IMG/VR virus record: IMGVR_UViG_3300010354_000743
Coordinates: 1 to 22,331 of that record
Strand: one strand, 5' to 3'
DNA from: a virus
Length of the DNA: 22,331 bases
The position numbers were made by a program, and so were the translations under genes. A model generated the notes under the pieces. That model made no database searches and had not been told where the DNA came from. It saw nothing but the letters and a program-made list of their open reading frames with translations. Position 1 is the first letter of the stretch. Every line of letters starts with the position of its first letter. This document shows positions 630 through 13,479 of this stretch, in pieces.

Positions 630-1232
630 TTATCCGTTCACAACATCGGTCGATTGAATTTGATCATTTGGAGCACTATCCCATAAACAAGGTTTACTCT
701 CTCCACCACTGCAAGCATTATCAACTGCTGCAAATAGACCAGCAGTAAAATTCATTGAAGATTTTGCAGTTAGTTCGCAAGAACCAGCAGAAAAGAATTT
801 TACCACAGAACTACCATTTATTTCAACATTTTTAGATCTAATATCAACTTTTTCATTCCCTTCAATAGATACAACACCATTTTTATTATCGCCAGAAGAC
901 TGTTTGGCAACAATCATTACATTTTTTCCTTCAATTCTTACATCACCATTTTTAGCATTTAATACAATATCTCCATTCAATGCTTCTACTAGAAAAGCAA
1001 CACCTTTTCTTTTTGTATCATGTCCACATTTAATTTGATAAGTATTTGGAGTAACCGTAGTTATAGTTCCTTTTCTTTTTCCATCTGCATCCATCGTCAT
1101 ATATTGACGATAATCATATCCACTACGGATCATTACTGCAGACAAAACCTGATCGTTATGAATATGTCCGAATTTTATTTCTCCATTTCTAGTGCCATAT
1201 CTTGCAGCATCCCTAGATTCTTTTTTTGCCAT
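630..1232 (-). CDS. Beta-helix-like baseplate spike/structural protein
   Basis: A 200-aa protein whose centre (about residues 85-170) is made of short alternating strands of the form GDIVLNAKNGDVRIEGKNV, VSIEGNEKVDIRSKNVEING and similar. Such I/V-x-G/N periodicity is typical of the triple-stranded beta-helix at the C-terminus of T4 gp5 and of VgrG spikes. Its ATG overlaps the TAA stop of the gp5-like gene by one base (TAATG), so translation is probably coupled. A likely interpretation is that the needle part of the spike, fused to gp5 in T4, is encoded separately here. The N-terminal 75 residues resemble nothing I recognise. It could instead be another baseplate-associated beta-rich protein. 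Location and repeat pattern support a tail structural role; the needle assignment is inference. Confidence 0.6.
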   Translation of the reverse strand: MAKKESRDAARYGTRNGEIKFGHIHNDQVLSAVMIRSGYDYRQYMTMDADGKRKGTITTVTPNTYQIKCGHDTKRKGVAFLVEALNGDIVLNAKNGDVRIEGKNVMIVAKQSSGDNKNGVVSIEGNEKVDIRSKNVEINGSSVVKFFSAGSCELTAKSSMNFTAGLFAAVDNACSGGESKPCLWDSAPNDQIQSTDVVNG

Positions 1233-3526
1233 TACTTAATTAATCTCCCAACACAATCTATTACACTAACAATTTTTGCGCCTTCAGGAATTTTTGGTAG
1301 TTCCTCAACTCTATTTACACAAAAATTTGGAAGTATCTTTGCATTAAACCCCGTTTCACTGTCGATATAAATTGTTGGCCAAGTATCAAATCCAGTTCCA
1401 GGATTTATAACATTTATCTTTTCTAAATTTCCCATTGGACCAAACACAGGCTCTAGTTCAGCACCGCCCATGTTTGGTTCAATAACAATTTGATCTCCTT
1501 CACTATAATTTATACCTCCATTCTGTATCACTGGATTACATAAAGTAAGAATAACGCCATAACTATCAGCATTAGATTTTTGAGGTTGTTGAATTTGCTG
1601 GATTTGAGATAAAAGTTGTATTTCTGGATCTGGTTCTGGCGCAATAACGGTTACAGGCACTTGAATTGTAATGGGAATCCCTGGAGGAATTACTGTTGGA
1701 TAATCAATAATAGCATTATCTGGGATTGTTATTTGATCACCTGGTAATAATTCAATTTTTTGACCTGGATTGTATGGAGGTTCCCAAGTACTATCACTTC
1801 TTTTAACTATAGTTTGCTCTGGTCTTGCCCATACTCTACCATCACCACCTTTGCTTCCGTCAAAACGCGATAAATACCCATCTCCAGGAGATTCAATTAC
1901 AACTTGCTGAACTTTTGTAGGATTTTTAGGATCCATAATTGGGTATGCGTTTGCGCCAGATCCTTTTCTGCAGTCATCTACAATAGAAACAAATGGTTCA
2001 TCAGAACTTAATCCTGGTGCAACTATGTCGACTCCAAGAACATCTCCAACAGCACTTGTAATTACATTACCTTTTGGAGCAGAAAGACTTCCATAAAATT
2101 CAATTTTAGGAGGTCCACATTTTACTGGATCAGGAACACATCCCTTTACTCCAGAAACAACAGATTTTACTGCACTTGCAACATTAACAACACTTCCAAA
2201 ATCGATTGAAGCAACATCAGAAATAACACCTTTTAATCCTGAAGCAAAACTCATTGCTGCAGAAAAAATTGAAGTGATATCAAATTTTGGTTGTCCTCCA
2301 GGAACAGCACCTGGTCCATCCCAAAAACTCCAAGTAACAAGATCTGGACACTCTTCTTCTTCCTCACAAGAAAAGAATCCAAGAAGTCCTTTAATTAATC
2401 CAAGAATATTTCCTGCAAGAGATCCTGCAATCCCAAGAAGAGCAAGAAGAGGAGTCAGCAAATTATTGATAAGAGCAATAAGTGGTCCAAGAATTTGTGA
2501 TAAAAGTCCTCCTGCAAAATTTTGAGCAATGCAAACAGGTATATTTACTGCCTTCCCTACAAGACCTTTTAAAAGACTACTAACTATGCCTTTAATTCCT
2601 TTAATTACTTTATTAAAAAGACAAGAAATCTTATCCCAAACCTTATCTTGTATTTTCTTTAATTTAGGTCTATCTTCTGGCCATATTTTTCCAAATTGCT
2701 TTTTAATTTTTTTCTGAACAAGATCTAAAGTATTTTTTCTTACTTCTTCAATAATAGATTTCATTTTTCCAGAAATCCATTCTGTTGCTTTATTAATTGC
2801 CTCGGTTACATCTTTTTCAATATTCTGTGCTTTTTTATTGATTGCATCTTGTGCGCTTGTCAATGCTTTTTGAGCACTTTCGATGCTTGCAATCATATCA
2901 CGCATTGCCAATTGAATTCCAGGTACTTCAGCACCTCCACACTTTCTTTTCGTAGGAAGATCTGATGATTTTTTACCATCTTTTTCTTGATCATCATCGG
3001 ATTGAAGAGGAATAATATCACTACTTCCATCACTTACTTCTACAGGTTTTCCTCCAGGTTTTAATCCAAATACAGGTCTACCATCAGACTTCCTATAAGA
3101 ATCTCCCCCAACTCCAGTAACATTTTCAAATCCATTTTTTGGATTTGGTTTTGGTTTGAGTTCTGTTTGAGTTTGATTTGGAAGTGTTCCAACAATTAAA
3201 TATTCGGATCCATCTTCCCCATCGAGAGTAATTCCAATTACAACTGAACCTTGTCTTAAAGTGGCAGTTTGAGATGAATTCATATGCCCGCTACCAGCAG
3301 TAACAGGCATAATAACTCCTACCATTTCAAGTTCTTCATCTTTAATCTCTGCTTTATCATGCTTACCAACAATTCTCACACGGTATCTCTGTCCGTATCC
3401 TGGAACAGAATCTGTTTTTGTTCTATTTTCATTTTTGCACCAAGTCTCCTCTTTGGCGATTCTACCAATCCACCATTTAGTACTTTGAGATGCTAATTGT
3501 TGACTTGTTTCGCAAGCAAAATTCAT
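1232..3526 (-). CDS. gp5: gp5-like baseplate hub/spike protein with OB fold, no lysozyme domain
   Basis: A 764-aa protein. Residues 1-120 match the T4 gp5 N-terminal OB-fold region in character: WWIGRIAKEE near the start, YGQRYRVRIVGKH, then GVIMPVTAG, LRQGSVVIGI and YLIVGTLPNQ. It should bind the gp27-type hub and hold the spike. After a Pro/Gly-rich linker comes a likely coiled coil (about 207-282). Next is a long Leu/Gly/Ile-rich hydrophobic stretch (about 306-390) ending in a short CEEEEEC acidic-cysteine cluster. A C-terminal part then contains beta modules of the type SPGDGY and NPGTGF followed by WPTIYI. I see no T4-lysozyme-like catalytic segment between the OB fold and the C-terminus, unlike T4 gp5. 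The start follows the 71-aa gene by three bases with only a weak GAAG ribosome site. The gp5 call rests on the OB fold and on its place downstream of the gp27-like gene. Confidence 0.75.
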   Translation of the reverse strand: MNFACETSQQLASQSTKWWIGRIAKEETWCKNENRTKTDSVPGYGQRYRVRIVGKHDKAEIKDEELEMVGVIMPVTAGSGHMNSSQTATLRQGSVVIGITLDGEDGSEYLIVGTLPNQTQTELKPKPNPKNGFENVTGVGGDSYRKSDGRPVFGLKPGGKPVEVSDGSSDIIPLQSDDDQEKDGKKSSDLPTKRKCGGAEVPGIQLAMRDMIASIESAQKALTSAQDAINKKAQNIEKDVTEAINKATEWISGKMKSIIEEVRKNTLDLVQKKIKKQFGKIWPEDRPKLKKIQDKVWDKISCLFNKVIKGIKGIVSSLLKGLVGKAVNIPVCIAQNFAGGLLSQILGPLIALINNLLTPLLALLGIAGSLAGNILGLIKGLLGFFSCEEEEECPDLVTWSFWDGPGAVPGGQPKFDITSIFSAAMSFASGLKGVISDVASIDFGSVVNVASAVKSVVSGVKGCVPDPVKCGPPKIEFYGSLSAPKGNVITSAVGDVLGVDIVAPGLSSDEPFVSIVDDCRKGSGANAYPIMDPKNPTKVQQVVIESPGDGYLSRFDGSKGGDGRVWARPEQTIVKRSDSTWEPPYNPGQKIELLPGDQITIPDNAIIDYPTVIPPGIPITIQVPVTVIAPEPDPEIQLLSQIQQIQQPQKSNADSYGVILTLCNPVIQNGGINYSEGDQIVIEPNMGGAELEPVFGPMGNLEKINVINPGTGFDTWPTIYIDSETGFNAKILPNFCVNRVEELPKIPEGAKIVSVIDCVGRLIK

Positions 3527-3796: not shown

Positions 3797-5767
3797 TTAA
3801 TCTGGACAATCTCTTCTTTTCAAAATCTTAGATCCATAATTTATCTGAGTTGTTTGCTGCGTTTGTTGAATAATTCTAGTTTCACCTGTTACTTGTTGGG
3901 TGGTTCCATTTGTTGTGGCAGTTGTAGTTTCAGGTGTTCCTATAGTTGTAGTTGTTCCTGTAGTTGTAGTTGTTTGTTGAGTAGATGCAGTTTCAGTAGT
4001 CAATGAACCTACAGAATTATTAAATTGAGATTGTACTGGTGTTGTAGTTTCAACAACATCAAGCACTGGAGATCCTTCACTTTGAATAATTCTAGTTTGA
4101 TCTCCAGGTATTCCTGTCGCAGACTGATTATTTGTTGTAGATAATGGAGGAGTTGGAGTTCTTTGTCCTCTTGTTGGTTTAACCCTTTCTCCTGGAATTT
4201 GACCAACTGTAGATCTTTCTGGAGATAATGTAGGACCAGAAGAATCTCTAGGCAGTGTAGCAACAGGACCAGTATAAACTCCAGGATTTCTTGGTTTTGT
4301 TGGAGTAGGTCTCTGTGTTTCTTCTTCAGTTTTTGGAGAAGATGGTGCAGATTGTGCCGAGGGAGAAGAAGAACTTTTTCCTTTTGACTTAGAACCAGAA
4401 CTACTATTTGGCGGACTACCAATTGTTGTTTTGCCAATATTTGGCGATGCACTTGCACCAGATTTTTTCTCTTCTGTATCACGAATAAGAGTTAATGATG
4501 TTACATTTGCTAATGGTTCTTTAGAACCAATATTTAATTGATGAGCAAGAGATTCTATCATATAAAGTCCACTCTTTCTTTTAGAAATTGTAACAACTTT
4601 TTTAAGAGATGGTTCTGGAAAATCTACTTCAACCATATCACCCGCTTTAACTTTAAAGTTGAGTGGTATTAATATTTTCAACTTTGACATTTGAAGTTGA
4701 TTATAACGAGATTTTGATTGACGAATAATATCATCAACTTTTAGATTAGTTTCTTTTGATTTACTAAATGAACCAGGTTTATCTGTAAGTTGTCCAGTAT
4801 CATCAATCTTTGAAGTAACTTTAAATGCTTTTCCTTTAATCATGCTGGGTCCAATATTTGAATCTTTTCCAGCATTATTCTTAACCATATTTTGAGATTT
4901 ATTATCTACACTATTTTCTCTATAATCATTTCTATATGGATTAAATCCAATATGATCCACTTTAGTGAATACACCATTCTCAATTATTTTTTTAAGATCC
5001 ATTGATCTCTTAAATTCAAAAGTCAAAATTTTTGCATCGTATCCTGGAGGAACTTTTTCTTCTACCTTATCATTATAAATTAATTTTAGTTTTGGTTTTT
5101 CTCCAAGCAGTTTATCGATAGATTTAAAATTAAGTCCATCTGCAGTGTGAAAAAGTAAATATCCAGCAAGTTTTCCCTTTGCTCCTGGCAAGTCAGGAAT
5201 AGATCTTGATGCCAACCAAAGAACTTTATCAAAAGGAGTATCAGTACTTTTATTTCCAGTAAAAGTAAACTTATTTAATGTTTTATCAATGTTAACTTTT
5301 AGTTTTGTCTTTAAAGTATTTTTTAAAATATCATCTACAGAATCTGAAATTAATCTATCATAATATTTTTTAATGACTCTATTTTTTGTATCTTCATTAT
5401 TAACAGAGTCCTCGGACCACATATTTAAAGTTACTACGACGCCTTTAACATCTTCAACAAAGTCATGATTTTTTACAAGTAGAGATGCTTTAAGTTTATT
5501 TTTATATCCATCAGTAAAAGCAAGTTCTACCTTTTCTCCAGTAGTTAATTTTAATCTATCGACAATATTTGGTTGACTTTTATCACCAACGTCAACTATT
5601 TCAGAATTAACCCTAACTGTTGTATCAAAAATACTTTCATAGTAAGTAAGAGATCTAAATCCCCTACCAACTTTGATAGAGGATCCAGAATTTGGTGTTA
5701 TTGTGTAAGTATCAACTTTGGCTTCATCAATATAAGCTGGTGTCGTCGCAAGCTTTTTATCTGCCAT
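3797..5767 (-). CDS. gp27: gp27-like baseplate hub protein with long disordered C-terminal tail
   Basis: A 656-aa protein. The first ~430 residues follow the order of T4 gp27. An N-terminal beta-barrel region has FRSLTYYESIFDTTVRV. A middle segment pairs a motif resembling the gp27 helix around its ~110th residue (TPFDKVLWLASRSI) with GYLLFHTADGLNFKSIDKLL. A later segment has SRYNQLQMSKLKILIP and VKAGDMVEVDFPE. In T4, gp27 forms a trimeric ring joining the tube to the gp5 spike, and the gp5-like gene is just downstream. The last ~220 residues are unlike T4 gp27 (391 aa): they are rich in Ser, Thr, Pro and Gln, including a near poly-Thr run at about 594-622, and are probably disordered. The start lies four bases after the stop of the 1383-aa gene. 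The hub assignment is by pattern and neighbours. Confidence 0.7.
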   Translation of the reverse strand: MADKKLATTPAYIDEAKVDTYTITPNSGSSIKVGRGFRSLTYYESIFDTTVRVNSEIVDVGDKSQPNIVDRLKLTTGEKVELAFTDGYKNKLKASLLVKNHDFVEDVKGVVVTLNMWSEDSVNNEDTKNRVIKKYYDRLISDSVDDILKNTLKTKLKVNIDKTLNKFTFTGNKSTDTPFDKVLWLASRSIPDLPGAKGKLAGYLLFHTADGLNFKSIDKLLGEKPKLKLIYNDKVEEKVPPGYDAKILTFEFKRSMDLKKIIENGVFTKVDHIGFNPYRNDYRENSVDNKSQNMVKNNAGKDSNIGPSMIKGKAFKVTSKIDDTGQLTDKPGSFSKSKETNLKVDDIIRQSKSRYNQLQMSKLKILIPLNFKVKAGDMVEVDFPEPSLKKVVTISKRKSGLYMIESLAHQLNIGSKEPLANVTSLTLIRDTEEKKSGASASPNIGKTTIGSPPNSSSGSKSKGKSSSSPSAQSAPSSPKTEEETQRPTPTKPRNPGVYTGPVATLPRDSSGPTLSPERSTVGQIPGERVKPTRGQRTPTPPLSTTNNQSATGIPGDQTRIIQSEGSPVLDVVETTTPVQSQFNNSVGSLTTETASTQQTTTTTGTTTTIGTPETTTATTNGTTQQVTGETRIIQQTQQTTQINYGSKILKRRDCPD

Positions 5768-5771
5768 ATTT

Positions 5772-8700
5772 CTATACTTTTACGTAAACAGTTTTTGTCA
5801 TAATAATAGGTACACCAGAAGAACCATACGAAGTATATTGCCCTATATTATCATATTTATCTAAAGATCCTCCACCTTGCCTATAAAGTTTTACTCCAGG
5901 GTTTTTGCGTTCAAAGTCTTTCTTTGCTTGTTCTTTTTTTCTTCTTTCTCTTTCAGCAGCAGCACCACCAAAGAACCCATATTTATCCCACCATGGACGA
6001 TCGGCTTGTATTTGAGCAGATCTTCTTGATGCTTGTTGAGATTGTCTACGATTTTGTTGCACTCTCAAATCAAAAAGAGTTTGTTGGTTTACTGGGTTGT
6101 CTGGAACCCACCTAGTTCCATTCCATAAAACTGATTTCCCATTTAATTTAGATTTTTCTCCTATAGTGTGCGTACTTCCTCTTTCTGGTTGTATTTCCTT
6201 TTTAACAACACCACTTGCAATTGCTGTCGTAAGTTCATTCAAAAACTCTTTATACTGTGGATGATTTGTAAAATTCTTTCCATATAATTCTTCCAGGTTT
6301 TCAAGAGATCCCAATTCTAAAAGAGCAGCAGGAGCTTGTCCTGCCAATCTAATTGTTCTATTTTGCTCAGTATCTATTCCATGATATCCTCCAGCAGTTT
6401 TGAATATTGAAGAATATTTTTCCAAAACTGGAGCAAGTTTTTCTGCTAAAGCACGATCTTGTGCATCATCTTTTTGAATTCTTGCTAAAAATCCTTTTCC
6501 TCCCTTACGAACATTAGCATCTAAATGGAAAGGTATTACAGAAGTTCCTTTTTTAGATTGATTTACAAGGAAATTATCATAATCTTCATAATTTCCAAAT
6601 TCTTCTGGAGTCATTATTTTGACTCTGTATCCTTGCTTTTTCAAACGTTCTGCAACATATTTCGCAATGCTATCTTGATATTCTCTTTCTCTTCCATCTG
6701 CGCCAGTTTTTGAGGCTGCATCAAATGTATTTCCTCCACGTTTATCTGGAATTAATCTTTCATTTCCAGGTTTTACATGATCTAGTGGAATAATAATATC
6801 ATATTCTCCTGTTGATCCTCCTTTTGGTTTTGATGCTTGTTCTAGGTTTGTTTTTGTTACATCCAATCCACCAGCGTAAGTATTGATAAAAGCTTTATGC
6901 CACTCTGAAGTTCCTTCAAGATGAGTATGAACTGCAGAACTACTTCCATATGCGGAAGACGCTCCTGGTCTTCCACCTTGAGTTCCAAAAAAAGTTCCTC
7001 CATTAAGAACTTTTCCATCAATACTTCTAGGGATGTTTTCTACGTGATGATATCTTGCAATAACCTTTCCAGTTTTTATATCTTCAAATCTAAGTGCATG
7101 TGGACCTTCAACAACTGCTTTTGCTTTTATTCCTAAAGGAACCACTAATGGTGCTCCTTCTCCCTCTAACATTTGAGAACCGCCATGAATTTGCGAGGTA
7201 ATTCCATAATCTCTTACTAATAATCCTCCTCTAACATCTTCACTACCATGATGCAAATAATCAGTTGGAGCAGATTCTCCAGGTTTTACTTGACGATATC
7301 CTGCTTGCCCAGACATTACAAGTAAATACTTTGCTTTTTCTTGAGAATTTGGAGATGGGGCAGCAGATTCCAAATTGACTGCTCCATCAGCTACCTTTAG
7401 TTTTCCTCCAGATTTTTGTGCATTAAAATTATCTTTAATTAGATCTGTAAATTTTGTTCCCTTAGTATTAAATCCATCAACGCCAACTTCTCCAGTTTCT
7501 AACCAATTTTTAGCACCACTCCAACCTTGATTATGAGCATATCCAAGAATTTGAAGTTTTCTTTCTGTATTAGCTTCTCTATATTCTTTACTAGAATTCA
7601 TTAAATATCTGTGGTTTGCAATTGTATATCCTGCAAACATTTGTTCTTGGAAAGATGAATTTTTTCTAAAAGCTTGACGAGCAGAATCATCATGTCCAGG
7701 ATTTCTAATTCCTAATATTTTTGCAGCGTCAGATTTTGCATCTGCTCCCATTTGATATCTTCCATCATAATGACCCCCACTGCCACCTGCAATATTATAA
7801 ACTCCTTTAGATTCTATTAGTGCTATAGAATTTCTATATAAGTCCCACTGGGATTCAGAAACTCCCAATTCCTTTTTAAGTAGTTCTGATGGAGCAGCAA
7901 CTGGAACATCTCCTCCACCCCCTTCATAATCACCAGAGGCGCCAGGTCCGCCAGGGCCGCCTGGACCACGTTGATTTCTTTCCAACATCTCATCACGACC
8001 AGTTGCACCCTTTCTAACTGTTCTTAAAGTTTCATTCAATTCCTTTTCAACAAGATTTGAAATTGCTCTACCTAAAAGATCTGCTTGGACTTGAGGATTT
8101 ACTGCATCTGGAGTGGCATTTGAAGGAATTTTTCCACCATCTGCCAAACCAGCAATTGCTCTTGTAACAGTTGATAACGTCATTGATGTTTGCTTTTCGG
8201 CGGAAGTTGTAATTAAATCACTTAATCCATCTCCAATCTGATTGAAAACTTGTCTACTCGTTCTTTGTCCCAACGTTGCATCCACAGCAGCTCCCATAAT
8301 TAACCCCAAGAATGAAGGAGCTTTTTTCAATTGCTCAGAACTTTTAAGTAAAGTTTTATATGGATTTGGTTTACTTAGTTCTTTTGGATTTGGATACAAT
8401 TTTTCAATTTGTTTTTTTCCACCAACGTCCTTCCCAGGGACTGTTTTTGGGGCAATATAACTCCTTTTTGCTTTTTTATTTTTATTTCCTCCTTGAATAT
8501 ACAAAGTTCTTTGTGCAGATCCCCCAACTAATTTACCACCTCTAGTTTGTATTCTTCCTCCACCAGCAGCTTTTTGCACTGGTTCATCTTTAGGAGCCCC
8601 CACCATAGCATCATATAAAGATCTTCCAAGAATATCACCAAGAATTGCTCCCCCAGTTGCTCCCAACCAAGTTCCAGCAAAAGGAATTGGAATTAAAGTT

Positions 8701-9923
8701 CCTAGCGCCCCTCCAATAGCAGTACCGACAGCATTTCCAACGGCACCAGCAGCTGCTCTTCCAGGTTTTTCTCTAAAAACAAATACACTAACTAAAAAGT
8801 CAACAATTGGACCAATTAAGGGAATTCTACCAAAACCTTTTGATATTCCTTTAACTGCGCCCTTAAATCCACCCTTTCCTAATGCTCTAGTCATTAGTCT
8901 TCCAGGAGCCTTTTGCACACCTTTTTTGAGAAGACTACTTCCACCTTTTTGCGCTAATCCTTCTCCCGCTTCCTGAGCGACAATTCTTCCAGACTTAATT
9001 GCTCTATCTACTGCTGCTTTTGCTTGCTGAGCAGTTTTACCATTCGCACGGGCATTTTCATAAATTCTAGCGGCATTATTACCATAACGTCTTTCAATTA
9101 ATTTTGATTGAGCATCTCTTCCAAGATAATTTCTAAGATTTACATTTGGTTTAGTAGATCCACCTCTTGGACCACCTCTTGGACCACCTCTTGGACCACC
9201 TCTTGGACCTCCACCTCCTTTTGGACGATTTAAACCTGGAATATTTTTTCCTTTAGATAATAAAATTCCTACAGCAATTGCGCCATTAATAAAAATGTTT
9301 AATTGCTTTGAAAACTCATCAAATTTTTTAGTTGCTTCCTTTCCACCAACCTTTCCAACTAATCCACGAACCTCATCATATTTTGTATAACTAAAGTCAA
9401 TAAAATTAACCAAAGAATTTAAAGTCGTATTCAAAACAGTATCAGCAAACTTTGTAATTGGTTTTATTGCAGAAACTACACCTTGAAGTTTACTTAAATT
9501 TTCTGGAGTAAAATATGTAAAAAATAGTTTTCCTAAAATTGTCCAGAATAAAAATCTTTTTATACTATCAAAAATTCCAATTTTTGGAAGATTAACTCCA
9601 GATATTCCTTTCTTACCTGCAACTTTTTTTTCTTCTAGTTTATCTTCCCTTCTTTTCCTTTTACTATACAACTCTTGTTTTTTCTTAAAAGACTCTGATT
9701 TTTTTGAAAGTAAAAGATTACTTTTCAACAACTTGTCTGTTGATATAACTTGTGTTTTTATATTGATAATTTTTTTTCTTACCACTAAAGATCCAGATTT
9801 TTCTTCCTTACTTTTTTGAAGTAGAGATTTTTTATCGGAAGAAACCTTTACTGTTTTATTAGAATATTTGACAATTGCAGATGAAGATGATCCTGGAAGT
9901 AATTTTTGAGTATTGATTGCCAT
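5772..9923 (-). CDS. Tape-measure-like tail protein with three peptidoglycan-hydrolase-like domains
   Basis: A 1383-aa modular tail protein. The N-terminus (1-110) is Lys/Ser-rich and helical. Residues 116-134 hold FLFWTILGKLFF, shared with the 887-aa neighbour. A GGPR repeat tract follows (about 239-254), then Gly/Ala-rich hydrophobic stretches (about 330-445). Domain A (about 680-830) is lysozyme/transglycosylase-like: IALIESKG with candidate catalytic E704, then GRYQMG and AGYTIANHRYL. Domain B (about 866-1020) is M23-like: H892-x3-D896 and H999-T-H1001 match the zinc-site pattern of lysostaphin-type peptidases. Domain C (about 1038-1240) is amidase_3-like: H1049, E1079/E1081, H1133 and E1203 in LLELGSLEN. 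Together these could cut glycan strands, peptide cross-links and the amide bond during injection. A strong GGAGGA ribosome site precedes the ATG, inside the end of the 887-aa gene. The tape-measure-like label rests on position and composition; it could instead be a hub or tail-tip lysin. Confidence 0.8.
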   Translation of the reverse strand: MAINTQKLLPGSSSSAIVKYSNKTVKVSSDKKSLLQKSKEEKSGSLVVRKKIINIKTQVISTDKLLKSNLLLSKKSESFKKKQELYSKRKRREDKLEEKKVAGKKGISGVNLPKIGIFDSIKRFLFWTILGKLFFTYFTPENLSKLQGVVSAIKPITKFADTVLNTTLNSLVNFIDFSYTKYDEVRGLVGKVGGKEATKKFDEFSKQLNIFINGAIAVGILLSKGKNIPGLNRPKGGGGPRGGPRGGPRGGPRGGSTKPNVNLRNYLGRDAQSKLIERRYGNNAARIYENARANGKTAQQAKAAVDRAIKSGRIVAQEAGEGLAQKGGSSLLKKGVQKAPGRLMTRALGKGGFKGAVKGISKGFGRIPLIGPIVDFLVSVFVFREKPGRAAAGAVGNAVGTAIGGALGTLIPIPFAGTWLGATGGAILGDILGRSLYDAMVGAPKDEPVQKAAGGGRIQTRGGKLVGGSAQRTLYIQGGNKNKKAKRSYIAPKTVPGKDVGGKKQIEKLYPNPKELSKPNPYKTLLKSSEQLKKAPSFLGLIMGAAVDATLGQRTSRQVFNQIGDGLSDLITTSAEKQTSMTLSTVTRAIAGLADGGKIPSNATPDAVNPQVQADLLGRAISNLVEKELNETLRTVRKGATGRDEMLERNQRGPGGPGGPGASGDYEGGGGDVPVAAPSELLKKELGVSESQWDLYRNSIALIESKGVYNIAGGSGGHYDGRYQMGADAKSDAAKILGIRNPGHDDSARQAFRKNSSFQEQMFAGYTIANHRYLMNSSKEYREANTERKLQILGYAHNQGWSGAKNWLETGEVGVDGFNTKGTKFTDLIKDNFNAQKSGGKLKVADGAVNLESAAPSPNSQEKAKYLLVMSGQAGYRQVKPGESAPTDYLHHGSEDVRGGLLVRDYGITSQIHGGSQMLEGEGAPLVVPLGIKAKAVVEGPHALRFEDIKTGKVIARYHHVENIPRSIDGKVLNGGTFFGTQGGRPGASSAYGSSSAVHTHLEGTSEWHKAFINTYAGGLDVTKTNLEQASKPKGGSTGEYDIIIPLDHVKPGNERLIPDKRGGNTFDAASKTGADGREREYQDSIAKYVAERLKKQGYRVKIMTPEEFGNYEDYDNFLVNQSKKGTSVIPFHLDANVRKGGKGFLARIQKDDAQDRALAEKLAPVLEKYSSIFKTAGGYHGIDTEQNRTIRLAGQAPAALLELGSLENLEELYGKNFTNHPQYKEFLNELTTAIASGVVKKEIQPERGSTHTIGEKSKLNGKSVLWNGTRWVPDNPVNQQTLFDLRVQQNRRQSQQASRRSAQIQADRPWWDKYGFFGGAAAERERRKKEQAKKDFERKNPGVKLYRQGGGSLDKYDNIGQYTSYGSSGVPIIMTKTVYVKV
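9160..9207 (+). repeat. 12-bp tandem repeat, four perfect copies
   Basis: The unit CCACCTCTTGGA (plus strand) occurs four times in a row inside the 1383-aa gene. On the coding strand it encodes a GGPR-type run joining the basic N-terminal part to the rest of the protein. Identical copies suggest recent slippage, so copy number may vary between relatives. It probably forms a flexible linker. Confidence 0.9.
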
Positions 9924-9927
9924 GAAA

Positions 9928-12591
9928 CTATCCTCCTATACCATAGTAAATACTCATAATTTTAGAACGAAATTCCATAGTATCACCATCCATTGGTTCA
10001 GATGGAACATTAGGAGCTTTTGGAGTTCCAAGTTTTCCAGCAAAACCACCTTTACGTCCAGCATCAATAACTTCACTTGGCAAATTAATTACTCCACCAA
10101 TACCATTAGTTAGAGGTCCAATATTTTTATTTCGATATCCTTTCTTTGCCCACATGGAGTCATAATCCATATTTGCAATTCTTGTTCTAATATCATCAAG
10201 TCCACCACTCTCAACAAATTGTTTAGGGAATATTTCATGATGTTCCCCAGGTTGAACCGCAACTTGTAAAAGTTGAGTATCTCCTCCAAATTTACTAGAT
10301 CTCTCGCCAGTTTGAGTAGTTACTGGACCACCAACTTCTCTCCTTTGTGGTTGAATTAATTTAATAAAGTTCTTCTTGGGCCTAGTATTTTGCGCCAAGA
10401 GAGATCCTCCATCCTGTTTTTTTAGAAAAGAATCATATCCGAGTTGAAGTGCCAATGCTCCCCAACCAATTGGTCCAGGAATCATCGAAAGAACAGAAAG
10501 TCCTGCCCCTGCCCAATCACCTTCTTTTACTCTCATACCAGCATCTATTGCACCTAAAGCAATACCAACTCCAGGTACGAATCTACCAGCAGTTTTTCCA
10601 AGACCTCTTGCTCCTTTAAGAGATGCTGTAGTATATCCCTTTGTCATTAACTGTTTTGCTTTTGCACTCTTAGAATATTTTCCTGTATTGATTTTATTCA
10701 TCAAACGCATACCCTTTGTTAGGGTTTGTGGTTTAACAATTTGTTCTGTTGCTCCAGGAAGTCTTAAAAAGGATCCAGATCCCATAGGAGCAGCAACATC
10801 AATAATATCTCCAGTTCCAGCAACTCCTCTATTAAAACCTCTTTCAAGCATTCCTCTACCCGCAGATGTAGAGCTGGTTGCAAATCTCTGTGCGACTGGT
10901 AAATCTGGAGTCATAAAAGCATTACGAGTCATGTAAATATTTTGAGGAGATCCAGATCTAAATCCAAGTCCTTTTTGCTGCCAATCTTTGTAAAGATTTG
11001 CTTGACGAATAGAAGAAGCAGCTTCTTTGGAAGTTCCATGATATCCCTTTCTTATTGTTCCCCCCAATCCCTTTCCTCTAATACCTTGGAAAGGTCTAGA
11101 AACTGCTTTTAAAACTCCTCTTCCAAATTGAGATGCTGTTTCCCACCAATTTTTATTTTGCGATTGTTTTTTGACTGTTCCACCGTCTTTAAATCTTTGT
11201 GGTTTTTCTAGATCAAAAGATTCTTTTTCAAAATCAATTTTAGGTTTTGCAATTTTGACTGAGGAATTTAGATAATCTCCAATTAAACCTCCTCCCTTTG
11301 CCAGTCTAATTCCATCGGACCATTTAGGAATATTAGCGCCAGGTCCACCATATAGAGCATTCAATCCCAATAAATTATTGGCACCAACTGCATCAACTGC
11401 TGCCTTATTCATTACAACCTCTCCAGGTTGTGCAGCAATCAATTGAGTATCTGGACCAGCTCCAGTAATTCTTACTCCACTATTTCTATTAATATTTCCA
11501 CCACTTGCAAATAAAGATGCTGCAGGAATATTTTTAACAAGTCCTCCAGTATTAAATAAGTGTCCTCCAAGTCCACCAGAACTTGCATAATCTAAAAATG
11601 ATTTTTGAGGACTTGGTTTTTCACCATAATCTGGTTTTAATTCTTTAAATTCTTTATCCTGTTTTTCTACTCTATCTCCCCAAGAACTTCCCGCCCAAGC
11701 AGCAAGAACTCCAGTTCCAATTGCTGCAGTAAGAGCAGGATTCATTGCAGCAAGAGCAATTAATCCTCTACCAAGTGTTCCAACAATTGTTGCAACAAAT
11801 CCCCCTAAAGGTGTGCAAAAAGCAAGAAACCCCGTAAGAATTGCAGGAAACCAATCCTTAACAAATCTGGTTAAACTTTGAACTTTTTTCTGATTGGCAG
11901 GATTTCCCATCCAATCAATTAATTTAAAAAATGTTTTTCCTAATAAAACCCAAAAAAGAAATTTAAAAATTCTATCAAAAATACTTTGAAAGGGAGCAAT
12001 AAGAGTTTTAGCAACTCCTTTTAAAGCAGATCCTAACCCACCTTTTTCTAAACTTTCTTCTTTTTGTCTTCTCCTTTCATTTTCCGATTTTTTTCTATCA
12101 GAATTTAAAGAATTATTTAAAATTTTATTTTGATCTTTTACAGAGGACGCAATAGACTGAAGACCTTTTTTAATATCCTCAAATAATTTAGATAGTGACA
12201 GTTGTTCTTTTTTAGTATTAGTTGTAGATTCTACTTTTTGATTTGGTTGTTTCTTTTCTGGTGCTTGAGGTAGTAACTTATTTTGAGGTATTGATTTTGG
12301 TTTTGGTGTTGCTGTCTTTTTAGTTGCCTTTAAAGTGGAAACATTACCGACATTTATTTTTTTACTCTTTGGTTTAAATCTGCCAGTTTTATTTCTTACT
12401 CTTTTAAACTCATTTCTCAGTAATTCTGCCTCTTCTGTAGGAATTTTACTCTTGGTCATCTGTGCAGAGACCAAAGCTTCCTTCAGAAGAGTTTTATATG
12501 TTCCATAATCTAAATCAAATATATCCTGAAGACCAAGCAGCCTTAGAATTCTTTCGTCAATAATTTCTGTGACTAAATTCTTAGCTGCCAT
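9928..12591 (-). CDS. Tape-measure-like tail protein containing an ART-like segment
   Basis: An 887-aa protein just downstream of gp26, the usual tape-measure position. Residues 1-80 are helical. Residues 80-200 are Lys/Gln/Ser-rich and probably coiled. Residues 202-222 hold FKFLFWVLLGKTFF, shared with the 1383-aa protein, followed by hydrophobic Gly/Ala helices to about 300. At about 390-418 is QPGEVVMNKAAVDAVG, a motif common in phage tape-measure proteins; a second PGE motif (VQPGEHHEIFP) lies at about 781-791. Residues about 505-625 resemble an ADP-ribosyltransferase fold: GYHGTS with H518, NIYMT with Y553 and ATEQIV with E616, an H-Y-E arrangement. A Gly/Ala hydrophobic stretch (VPGVGIALGA, MIPGPIGWGALAL) follows. 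The ATG lies 11 bases inside the preceding 60-aa frame. The tail role is likely; the enzyme domain is a pattern-based inference. It may be the counterpart of T4 gp29, though no residue-level similarity is obvious to me. Confidence 0.7.
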   Translation of the reverse strand: MAAKNLVTEIIDERILRLLGLQDIFDLDYGTYKTLLKEALVSAQMTKSKIPTEEAELLRNEFKRVRNKTGRFKPKSKKINVGNVSTLKATKKTATPKPKSIPQNKLLPQAPEKKQPNQKVESTTNTKKEQLSLSKLFEDIKKGLQSIASSVKDQNKILNNSLNSDRKKSENERRRQKEESLEKGGLGSALKGVAKTLIAPFQSIFDRIFKFLFWVLLGKTFFKLIDWMGNPANQKKVQSLTRFVKDWFPAILTGFLAFCTPLGGFVATIVGTLGRGLIALAAMNPALTAAIGTGVLAAWAGSSWGDRVEKQDKEFKELKPDYGEKPSPQKSFLDYASSGGLGGHLFNTGGLVKNIPAASLFASGGNINRNSGVRITGAGPDTQLIAAQPGEVVMNKAAVDAVGANNLLGLNALYGGPGANIPKWSDGIRLAKGGGLIGDYLNSSVKIAKPKIDFEKESFDLEKPQRFKDGGTVKKQSQNKNWWETASQFGRGVLKAVSRPFQGIRGKGLGGTIRKGYHGTSKEAASSIRQANLYKDWQQKGLGFRSGSPQNIYMTRNAFMTPDLPVAQRFATSSTSAGRGMLERGFNRGVAGTGDIIDVAAPMGSGSFLRLPGATEQIVKPQTLTKGMRLMNKINTGKYSKSAKAKQLMTKGYTTASLKGARGLGKTAGRFVPGVGIALGAIDAGMRVKEGDWAGAGLSVLSMIPGPIGWGALALQLGYDSFLKKQDGGSLLAQNTRPKKNFIKLIQPQRREVGGPVTTQTGERSSKFGGDTQLLQVAVQPGEHHEIFPKQFVESGGLDDIRTRIANMDYDSMWAKKGYRNKNIGPLTNGIGGVINLPSEVIDAGRKGGFAGKLGTPKAPNVPSEPMDGDTMEFRSKIMSIYYGIGG

Positions 12592-12763
12592 TACGCTTAC
12601 TCTTTTGCTCTTCTTCTTCTAGATGATTGCTTAATAAAGTTACATAAATGTCCCTTTCCCAAGGTATCATATTTTCAATTTCTGTCAATGAATATTTATG
12701 GTACTGCATTAACGAAAAATTAAGTTTATAATATCCCTCTAGATCCATATGGATCATACTCAT
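12581..12763 (-). CDS. Small tail-assembly protein overlapping gp26, possible -1 frameshift extension
   Basis: A 60-aa frame: an N-terminal segment HMDLEGYYKLNF, a helical MQYHKYSLTEIENMIPWERDIYVTLL and a charged LEEEEQKSKR end. Its ATG overlaps the gp26 TGA (ATGA), and its own end overlaps the 887-aa tape-measure-like start by 11 bases. It can be made alone by coupled initiation. It can also be made as a gp26 fusion, because the slippery heptamer T_TTT_TTC at 12766-12772 puts ribosomes into exactly this frame, reading CGG then this ATG. By position it corresponds to the T extension of lambda-type tail chaperones. T4 gene 51 is another possible counterpart, but T4 gp51 is much longer and I cannot show similarity. 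The gene is real given its conserved-looking WERDIY helix and tight packing. Confidence 0.65.
   Translation of the reverse strand: MSMIHMDLEGYYKLNFSLMQYHKYSLTEIENMIPWERDIYVTLLSNHLEEEEQKSKRNGS
12742..12755 (-). other. Hairpin 3' of the gp26 slippery site
   Basis: On the minus strand this reads GATCCATATGGATC, a perfect inverted repeat able to form a GATCC stem with an ATAT loop. It begins 10 bases after the end of the T_TTT_TTC heptamer, close to the spacing of frameshift-stimulating structures. The stem is short, so it would be a weak stimulator. Confidence 0.5.
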
Positions 12764-13479
12764 CCGAAAAAACTAGAAAGACCCTCCAGTACAACTTCAC
12801 TTTCAATGCCAGTATTTGGATTAGTAACGCTTACTTTATGAGTAAGTTTAGGCATAGTATCAAAAAACTTTTCAACTTCTTTAAATTGATTAGTATTCAT
12901 TTGATCAATAAAATCAACCAATTCTTTTTTAGTAACCTCAGAAGATGTCCAAACTTCTTCTTCAGTAAAAATTTTATTAATGCAAGTTGCAATCAATTCA
13001 AACGATTTTTCCATAGTATTTTCAGTTGACATATCAAAGTTATTTTTAATGAATTGATCTAAAGATGGATATGTCATTTCCATCATAATATTATCATCAA
13101 CTTTAATAGTTGTTGTATGCTCTGGGTTTTTTTCTACATTAATATCATCAATATTAATTTTAACAGGAACTGAAGTTTCATCATCATCTGGGCAAATAAT
13201 ATTAACTTCAATTTCTTCCCCAACAGATTTTCCGCGAATATTGAGAAACAGATATTCAATATCAAAAGTTGGTAATGACTCTACTTTAATACCTTTGGTT
13301 TCAATGCAATTTTTAATTACTGTTTTAATTGCAGTAGTAATTTGCTTTGGATCTTCACTTTCTAAAGCGATTACTAGAAGTTTTTCTTCTCTTACTAAAA
13401 ATGGTCTATACTTAATTTTTTGACCAGATGAAGGTAGATCCAACTCATAAGTTGGTGTAGAAATTTTTGGTAAAGGCAT
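12760..13479 (-). CDS. gp26: gp26-like baseplate hub/tail assembly protein
   Basis: A 239-aa protein matching the T4 gp26 (T4_baseplate) family in its layout. The N-terminus has MPLPKISTPTYELDLPSSGQ, then YRPFLVREEKLLVIALES and LPTFDIEYLFLNIRGKSVGE. A C-terminal helical part carries MEKSFELIATCINKIF and a LVDFIDQMNTNQFKEVEKFF helix. The order of N-terminal recognition segment, FLVREEK and FDIEYLFLNIR is strongly diagnostic of this family, whose members lie just before the hub and tape-measure genes. It probably acts in hub assembly, perhaps as a tail-assembly chaperone. A good AGGAG ribosome site lies just before the ATG (complement of 13483-13487), and an AATAAATA late-type element lies upstream. 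The last codons read AGT TTT TTC GGA TGA, a canonical slippery site. Confidence 0.85.
   Translation of the reverse strand: MPLPKISTPTYELDLPSSGQKIKYRPFLVREEKLLVIALESEDPKQITTAIKTVIKNCIETKGIKVESLPTFDIEYLFLNIRGKSVGEEIEVNIICPDDDETSVPVKINIDDINVEKNPEHTTTIKVDDNIMMEMTYPSLDQFIKNNFDMSTENTMEKSFELIATCINKIFTEEEVWTSSEVTKKELVDFIDQMNTNQFKEVEKFFDTMPKLTHKVSVTNPNTGIESEVVLEGLSSFFG
12766..12772 (-). other. Candidate -1 ribosomal frameshift site T_TTT_TTC
   Basis: In the gp26 frame the codons run AGT TTT TTC GGA TGA. The heptamer T_TTT_TTC fits the X_XXY_YYZ rule. After a -1 slip the frame reads TTT TTT CGG ATG, entering the 60-aa frame exactly at its ATG. The fusion would be about 299 aa. A hairpin follows 10 bases downstream. 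Confidence 0.6.

Follow-up and report, generated by a model that had tools for sequence, protein, structure and literature searches.

Our analysis of IMG/VR virus record IMGVR_UViG_3300010354_000743 (positions 1 to 22,331; the whole 22,331-nucleotide stretch analysed is hereafter the window) supports a model whereby a 1383-residue protein, Y, opens the host cell wall after delivery by the baseplate hub, as one member of a pair of neighbouring proteins, X and Y, that carry interchangeable enzyme cassettes. We consider this model probable. It builds on predicted folds, conservation of catalytic residues, gene slot, module swapping and the pairing of enzyme classes, all of which were computed; the enzymatic activities, their timing and delivery through the tail are inferred. 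Y is encoded at 5772..9923 on the minus strand by an open reading frame that starts with ATG and has no internal stop over its 1383 codons, in a conserved slot for baseplate-hub or tape-measure proteins whose occupants in two related phages are found in virions.

The N-terminal scaffold of Y (residues 1-450; 8574..9923, minus strand) has hydrophobic and glycine-rich segments, matches phrog_35997 (E 6e-25) and is common to other Y proteins, and blastp finds ~120 residues of it in X as well. A preliminary description of this DNA had proposed that Y is a tail protein with three peptidoglycan-hydrolase-like domains, each targeting a different bond, and the residues it named are indeed present at those positions. 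Pfam recognised the amidase alone, and the transglycosylase and M23 slices had no match in Pfam or in PDB sequence profiles; fold prediction was therefore used. Two AlphaFold models were built with IMG/VR relatives from two separate domain alignments, a joint three-domain alignment having misaligned the amidase fragments, and both were compared to the PDB by Foldseek. The slices matched lytic transglycosylase, LasA-type M23 and Amidase_3 structures, so that the fold searches back all three domains, and the modules belong by family to three bond-specificity classes, in keeping with the proposal of different target bonds. At the level of models, all three predicted folds stand, the M23 fold least firmly.

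The first module (residues 682-834; 7422..7880, minus strand; catalytic E704) contains the motifs ES..GRYQ..AHNQG. A PHROGs profile search matched residues 678-855 to phrog_5867, labelled endolysin, at E 7.5e-59, and E704, Q724 and N798 are invariant across the 44 sequences spanning the module. Its AlphaFold confidence (predicted local distance difference test) is mostly >90, and the top Foldseek matches are the phiKZ gp144 transglycosylase (3bkh), the phi6 lysin and Slt, with probabilities up to 1.00; nothing in this search passed E 0.001, the best match having E 4e-3. The module combines a lysozyme-superfamily fold, a catalytic Glu and the Gln and Asn-x-Gly motifs of the gp144/Slt type, and by predicted fold and conserved residues we regard Y residues ~680-835 as a confirmed module of the phiKZ gp144/Slt-like lytic transglycosylase type. 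In phiKZ, gp144 is a separate endolysin that has its own binding domain, whereas the module described here, although it shares the gp144 fold, is embedded in a hub-slot protein.

The N-acetylmuramoyl-L-alanine amidase module (residues 1038-1245; 6189..6812, minus strand) matches Pfam Amidase_3 (PF01520) at E 1.4e-7 and 32.2 bits, above the curated cut-off of 27, and its sequence matches LytH by phmmer (E 8e-4). The second AlphaFold model matches many Amidase_3 structures, the best single-domain match being 4rn7 (E 8e-7) and others including LytH, CwlV and AmiC. The His-Glu-His zinc ligands and the catalytic Glu of this family are present: H1049, E1079 and H1133 are invariant in seven of seven sequences and E1203 in six of six. 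E1081, which the preliminary description had offered as an alternative to E1079, varies, and E1079 is therefore the Glu ligand.

Between these two modules lies the putative M23 metallopeptidase (residues 859-1029; 6837..7349, minus strand), with key residues H892, D905 (or D896), H960, H999 and H1001. Two models matched LasA (3it5) and pseudoalterin (6ik4) with Foldseek probabilities of 0.99-1.00 (best LasA E 2.9e-3, from the second model; in the first, the matches lie in the half that follows the transglycosylase), and it is through these matches that the slice, which Pfam leaves blank, shows the M23 beta-sheet fold; by predicted structure, the module is of the LasA (M23A) type. At E 10, the slice matched none of 50,697 phage records, and in IMG/VR its sole match is the cyanophage L099 (IMGVR_UViG_3300044591_002420), 80% identical, which keeps H892, D896, D905, H960, H999 and H1001. 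The spacings H892-D905 (13) and H960-H999 (39) equal those of what we take to be H23-D36 and H81-H120 in LasA numbering, making D905, rather than the D896 named in the preliminary description, the probable zinc-ligand Asp. The LasA contact residues in a docking paper include His23, Asp36, His81 and His122 (PMC12579053). The candidate M23 zinc ligands are H892, D905 or D896, and H1001 as the second His of the HxH motif. The earlier view that the catalytic residues are intact is supported, with the M23 Asp probably reassigned and the amidase Glu narrowed to one residue. Across the M23 and amidase block, the window and L099 differ at 27/17/49% of codon positions 1/2/3 and at 63% of fourfold sites, and Y is therefore under purifying selection.

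Support for a tail location comes from the gene slot, which agrees with the earlier description of Y as a tail protein. The order gp26-gp51-X-Y-gp27-(CP12)-gp5 is fixed in T4-like cyanophages (Kyanoviridae) and was found, with small genes inserted or unannotated in places, in S-WAM1, Sf-CH1b, RN05-S, S-SCSM1, SynMITS9220M01, S-8S29, S-SM2, Bellamy, S-H68, S-B05, P-TIM68, Sf-CH5, S-PRM1, Syn33, syn9, MA01, P-TIM40, ACG-2014f and S-CREM2. The window gp26 is up to 73% identical to that of Synechococcus phage Bellamy; together with the slot order, this identifies the window as coming from a T4-like cyanophage of Kyanoviridae type. Both slot proteins of S-SCSM1, ORF213 and ORF214, were detected in virions (PMC9602691), as were S-CREM2 ORF208/209 (73/71 peptides; PMC10665884), which we confirmed as occupants of the X/Y slot; by analogy with these published proteomes, Y would be a virion protein. 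The window gp5-like central spike with its OB domain (1232..3526, minus strand; Pfam Gp5_OB E 6e-5, just under the curated cut-off; phrog_1922 E 2e-80) has no Pfam Phage_lysozyme match, and thus no detected lysozyme of the T4 gp5 type. The wall-cutting role therefore appears to have shifted from gp5 to X and Y.

Comparison among relatives indicates that the enzymes are exchanged. Two loci from different metagenomes, L018 and L135, have flanking DNA that is 92.9% identical upstream (2.2 kb) and 99.3% identical downstream (4.4 kb), and between these near-identical flanks L018 has a gp144-type and L135 a SleB-type module: a direct module swap. By family, each of these two types cuts glycan, so that the swap changed the family and left the bond class as it was. 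The window and L099 differ by the same exchange: L099 has SleB-type Hydrolase_2 where Y has the gp144-type transglycosylase, and in the same slot and matching order it carries an M23 80% identical and an amidase 65% identical to those of Y. The M23 and amidase block of the two is 66% identical over 427 residues; identities elsewhere are 45% for gp26, 34% for gp27, 30% for gp5, 29% for X and 26-28% for the Y scaffold. This contrast with the neighbours is as expected if the block moved horizontally. A genome-contig scan with the C-terminal third of Y found no bacterial relatives.

To survey the slot, Y proteins were gathered from phage records and IMG/VR with three baits (transglycosylase, amidase and gp26), giving 89 non-redundant complete proteins that, with S-WAM1 and L020 (3' end cut), make 91; modules were called by Pfam and module hidden Markov models. 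Fifteen module types occur: gp144-type transglycosylase, SLT, glucosaminidase, SleB-type Hydrolase_2, phage tail lysozyme, DPBB, M23, LasA-type M23, M15_3, M15_4, VanY, Amidase_2, Amidase_3 and two tentative types, CHAP-like and HxH M15-like, recognised by motif and not confirmed by Pfam. Y carries no module in 24 proteins, one in 43, two in 19, three in four and four in one; among the 42 sampled through gp26 or as isolates, the counts for none, one, two and three are 18, 18, 6 and 0. X carries hydrolase modules in 55 of 153 loci. The idea that three enzymes in one protein are unique to the window was rejected, L099, L032, L014 and L017 also having at least three modules. Three enzymes in one Y protein are rare but not unique: the set had been called unusual, which is borne out for the single protein (at least three modules in 5/91), whereas kits mixing glycan with peptide or amide cutters over X and Y together are usual wherever at least two modules are recognised. 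The richest architecture in the survey is a 2214-residue Y (L014:868-7509) with Amidase_2, M15, gp144-type transglycosylase and CHAP-like modules and a lysozyme-like stretch; inspection of the sequences of L014 and L017 suggests further, unassigned lysozyme-like stretches. The S-CREM2 slot proteins (L188:3984-13055; 1565 and 1456 residues) add GH19 and Phage_lysozyme to the module types of the slot.

The modules tend to occur in complementary classes, these labels being derived from family names. All 24 Y proteins with at least two modules hold one recognised glycan cutter together with peptide or amide cutters, and all 39 X+Y kits with at least two recognised modules hold both classes, as do 12 of 12 kits without the bait transglycosylase (permutation p 0.0017, in a sample where related phages are not independent). 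A rule that both classes are always present was rejected because of S-CREM2, and a rule of exactly one glycan cutter per kit because of L020, L044 and L094. The pairing is best described as a strong tendency rather than a law.

In our model, the conserved N-terminal half of Y would be a scaffold holding the protein in the tail and the C-terminal half would supply the three wall-cutting enzymes. Upon tail contraction at infection, the hub would bring Y to the periplasm, where the transglycosylase would cut the glycan strands, the LasA-type peptidase the cross-linking peptides, and the amidase would strip stem peptides from N-acetylmuramic acid. Jointly, the three enzymes could make a local opening through which the tail tube passes, in T4 the job of the lysozyme inside gp5. 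Relatives retain the scaffold and exchange the enzymes, usually with at least one glycan cutter and at least one peptide or amide cutter across X and Y.

Several observations weigh against this model. The M23 call is based on two sequences and on models of medium loop confidence, and an hhalign comparison of the slice with canonical M23 modules of the same slot failed (probability 1.8%). No recognised hydrolase is present in the 24 module-free Y proteins among the 91; the survey is biased, many loci having been fetched by the transglycosylase itself as bait, and in some of these X and Y may be exchanged. In S-CREM2, added later, the modules that Pfam recognises all cut glycan: GH19 in X and phage lysozyme in Y. 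One or more modules might also be catalytically dead and act as wall-binding domains: some degenerate M23/LytM and amidase domains are known to have a binding or regulatory role only, and the M23 Asp assignment is ambiguous. We find this improbable for Y, in which the transglycosylase and amidase catalytic residues are invariant and the key M23 His and both candidate Asp residues are kept despite 63% fourfold divergence.

Two further readings concern what the protein does in the phage. Y might be an endolysin, a late lysis enzyme that merely sticks to virions, as the phrog_5867 label, the endolysin annotations of the S-CREM2 slot proteins and of RN05-S X, and the S-SCSM1 authors, who allow a release role or carry-over after CsCl purification (PMC9602691), would have it. 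The long scaffold related to X, the position inside the baseplate gene cluster, the high S-CREM2 virion peptide counts (73/71; PMC10665884) and the lack of a detected lysozyme in gp5 make this very unlikely. Alternatively, Y could be mainly a tape measure for tail length, its hydrolases being carried along, as happens in T5 pb2 and other tape measures; the RefSeq name of the S-SCSM1 orthologue is 'tail length tape measure protein', and there are weak glycine-zipper matches in the scaffolds of Y relatives. Against this, Y varies from 386 to 2214 residues in length, a spread that mostly reflects module content, and no more than ~450 residues of scaffold are shared. We think it rather unlikely that this is the main role, but a tape-measure function is compatible with, and not exclusive of, wall opening from the hub.

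Virion-associated hydrolases, including two-enzyme ones, are already known, and Y has hydrolase domains with intact catalytic residues, as they do. The T4 gp5 tail lysozyme, as predicted for Y, is a virion-borne wall hydrolase encoded among the baseplate hub genes; in T4, however, one lysozyme is inside gp5, whereas in the window three predicted enzymes are in its neighbour Y. Complementary cutters, of glycan and of peptide or amide bonds, are also combined in one virion protein in phi29 gp13 (lysozyme and endopeptidase) and in phiMR11 VAL (CHAP and lysozyme), but these have two enzymes, while Y has three including an amidase, a long scaffold and modules swapped among relatives. The X and Y of S-SCSM1 occupy the corresponding slot and are found in the virion (PMC9602691), with glucosaminidase in X and VanY in Y, unlike the window. 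A partial literature search found no description of an exchangeable X/Y kit.

X (887 residues; 9928..12591, minus strand) is related to Y in its N-terminal region (blastp, 31% over 143 residues); by eye, its residues ~510-640, a segment starting YHGTSKEAASSIRQ and without a Pfam match, resemble an ADP-ribosyltransferase-type motif, and X could be an ejected protein acting inside the host. The gp26 baseplate hub protein (12760..13479, minus strand) matches Pfam T4_baseplate at E 8e-75, and between gp26 and X lies a 60-residue putative gp51-like hub assembly catalyst (12581..12763, minus strand), assigned by position and by eye only. Directly downstream of Y, a gp27-like hub or tail protein (3797..5767, minus strand; phrog_350 E 2e-59) has 656 residues, where relatives have 434-480, and carries a long tail rich in Thr, Gln and Ser within which an overlapping 157-residue frame lies at 4009-4482. 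In many Y proteins the final hydrolase module is succeeded by a recurring short motif in which ASYE or YTSY precedes a hydrophobic strand, often together with IPIP; in the window it is at 5772-5870 (minus strand), and it is possibly a docking tail.

Little has been described of how the abundant T4-like cyanophages get through the wall, and the X/Y slot is mostly annotated as hypothetical. We speculate, tentatively and at a little less than even confidence, that the wall-opening kit of T4-like cyanophages consists of two proteins and is exchangeable, with swaps that put an unrelated enzyme of the same bond class in place of another and with selection keeping both cutter classes in each virion, so that kit composition could record adaptation to the host wall. 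If so, the virion wall-cutting enzymes of a cyanophage would be predictable from two genes, enzyme sets would become testable against host wall chemistry, and the slot would offer a natural library of ~15 interchangeable hydrolase module types to mine.

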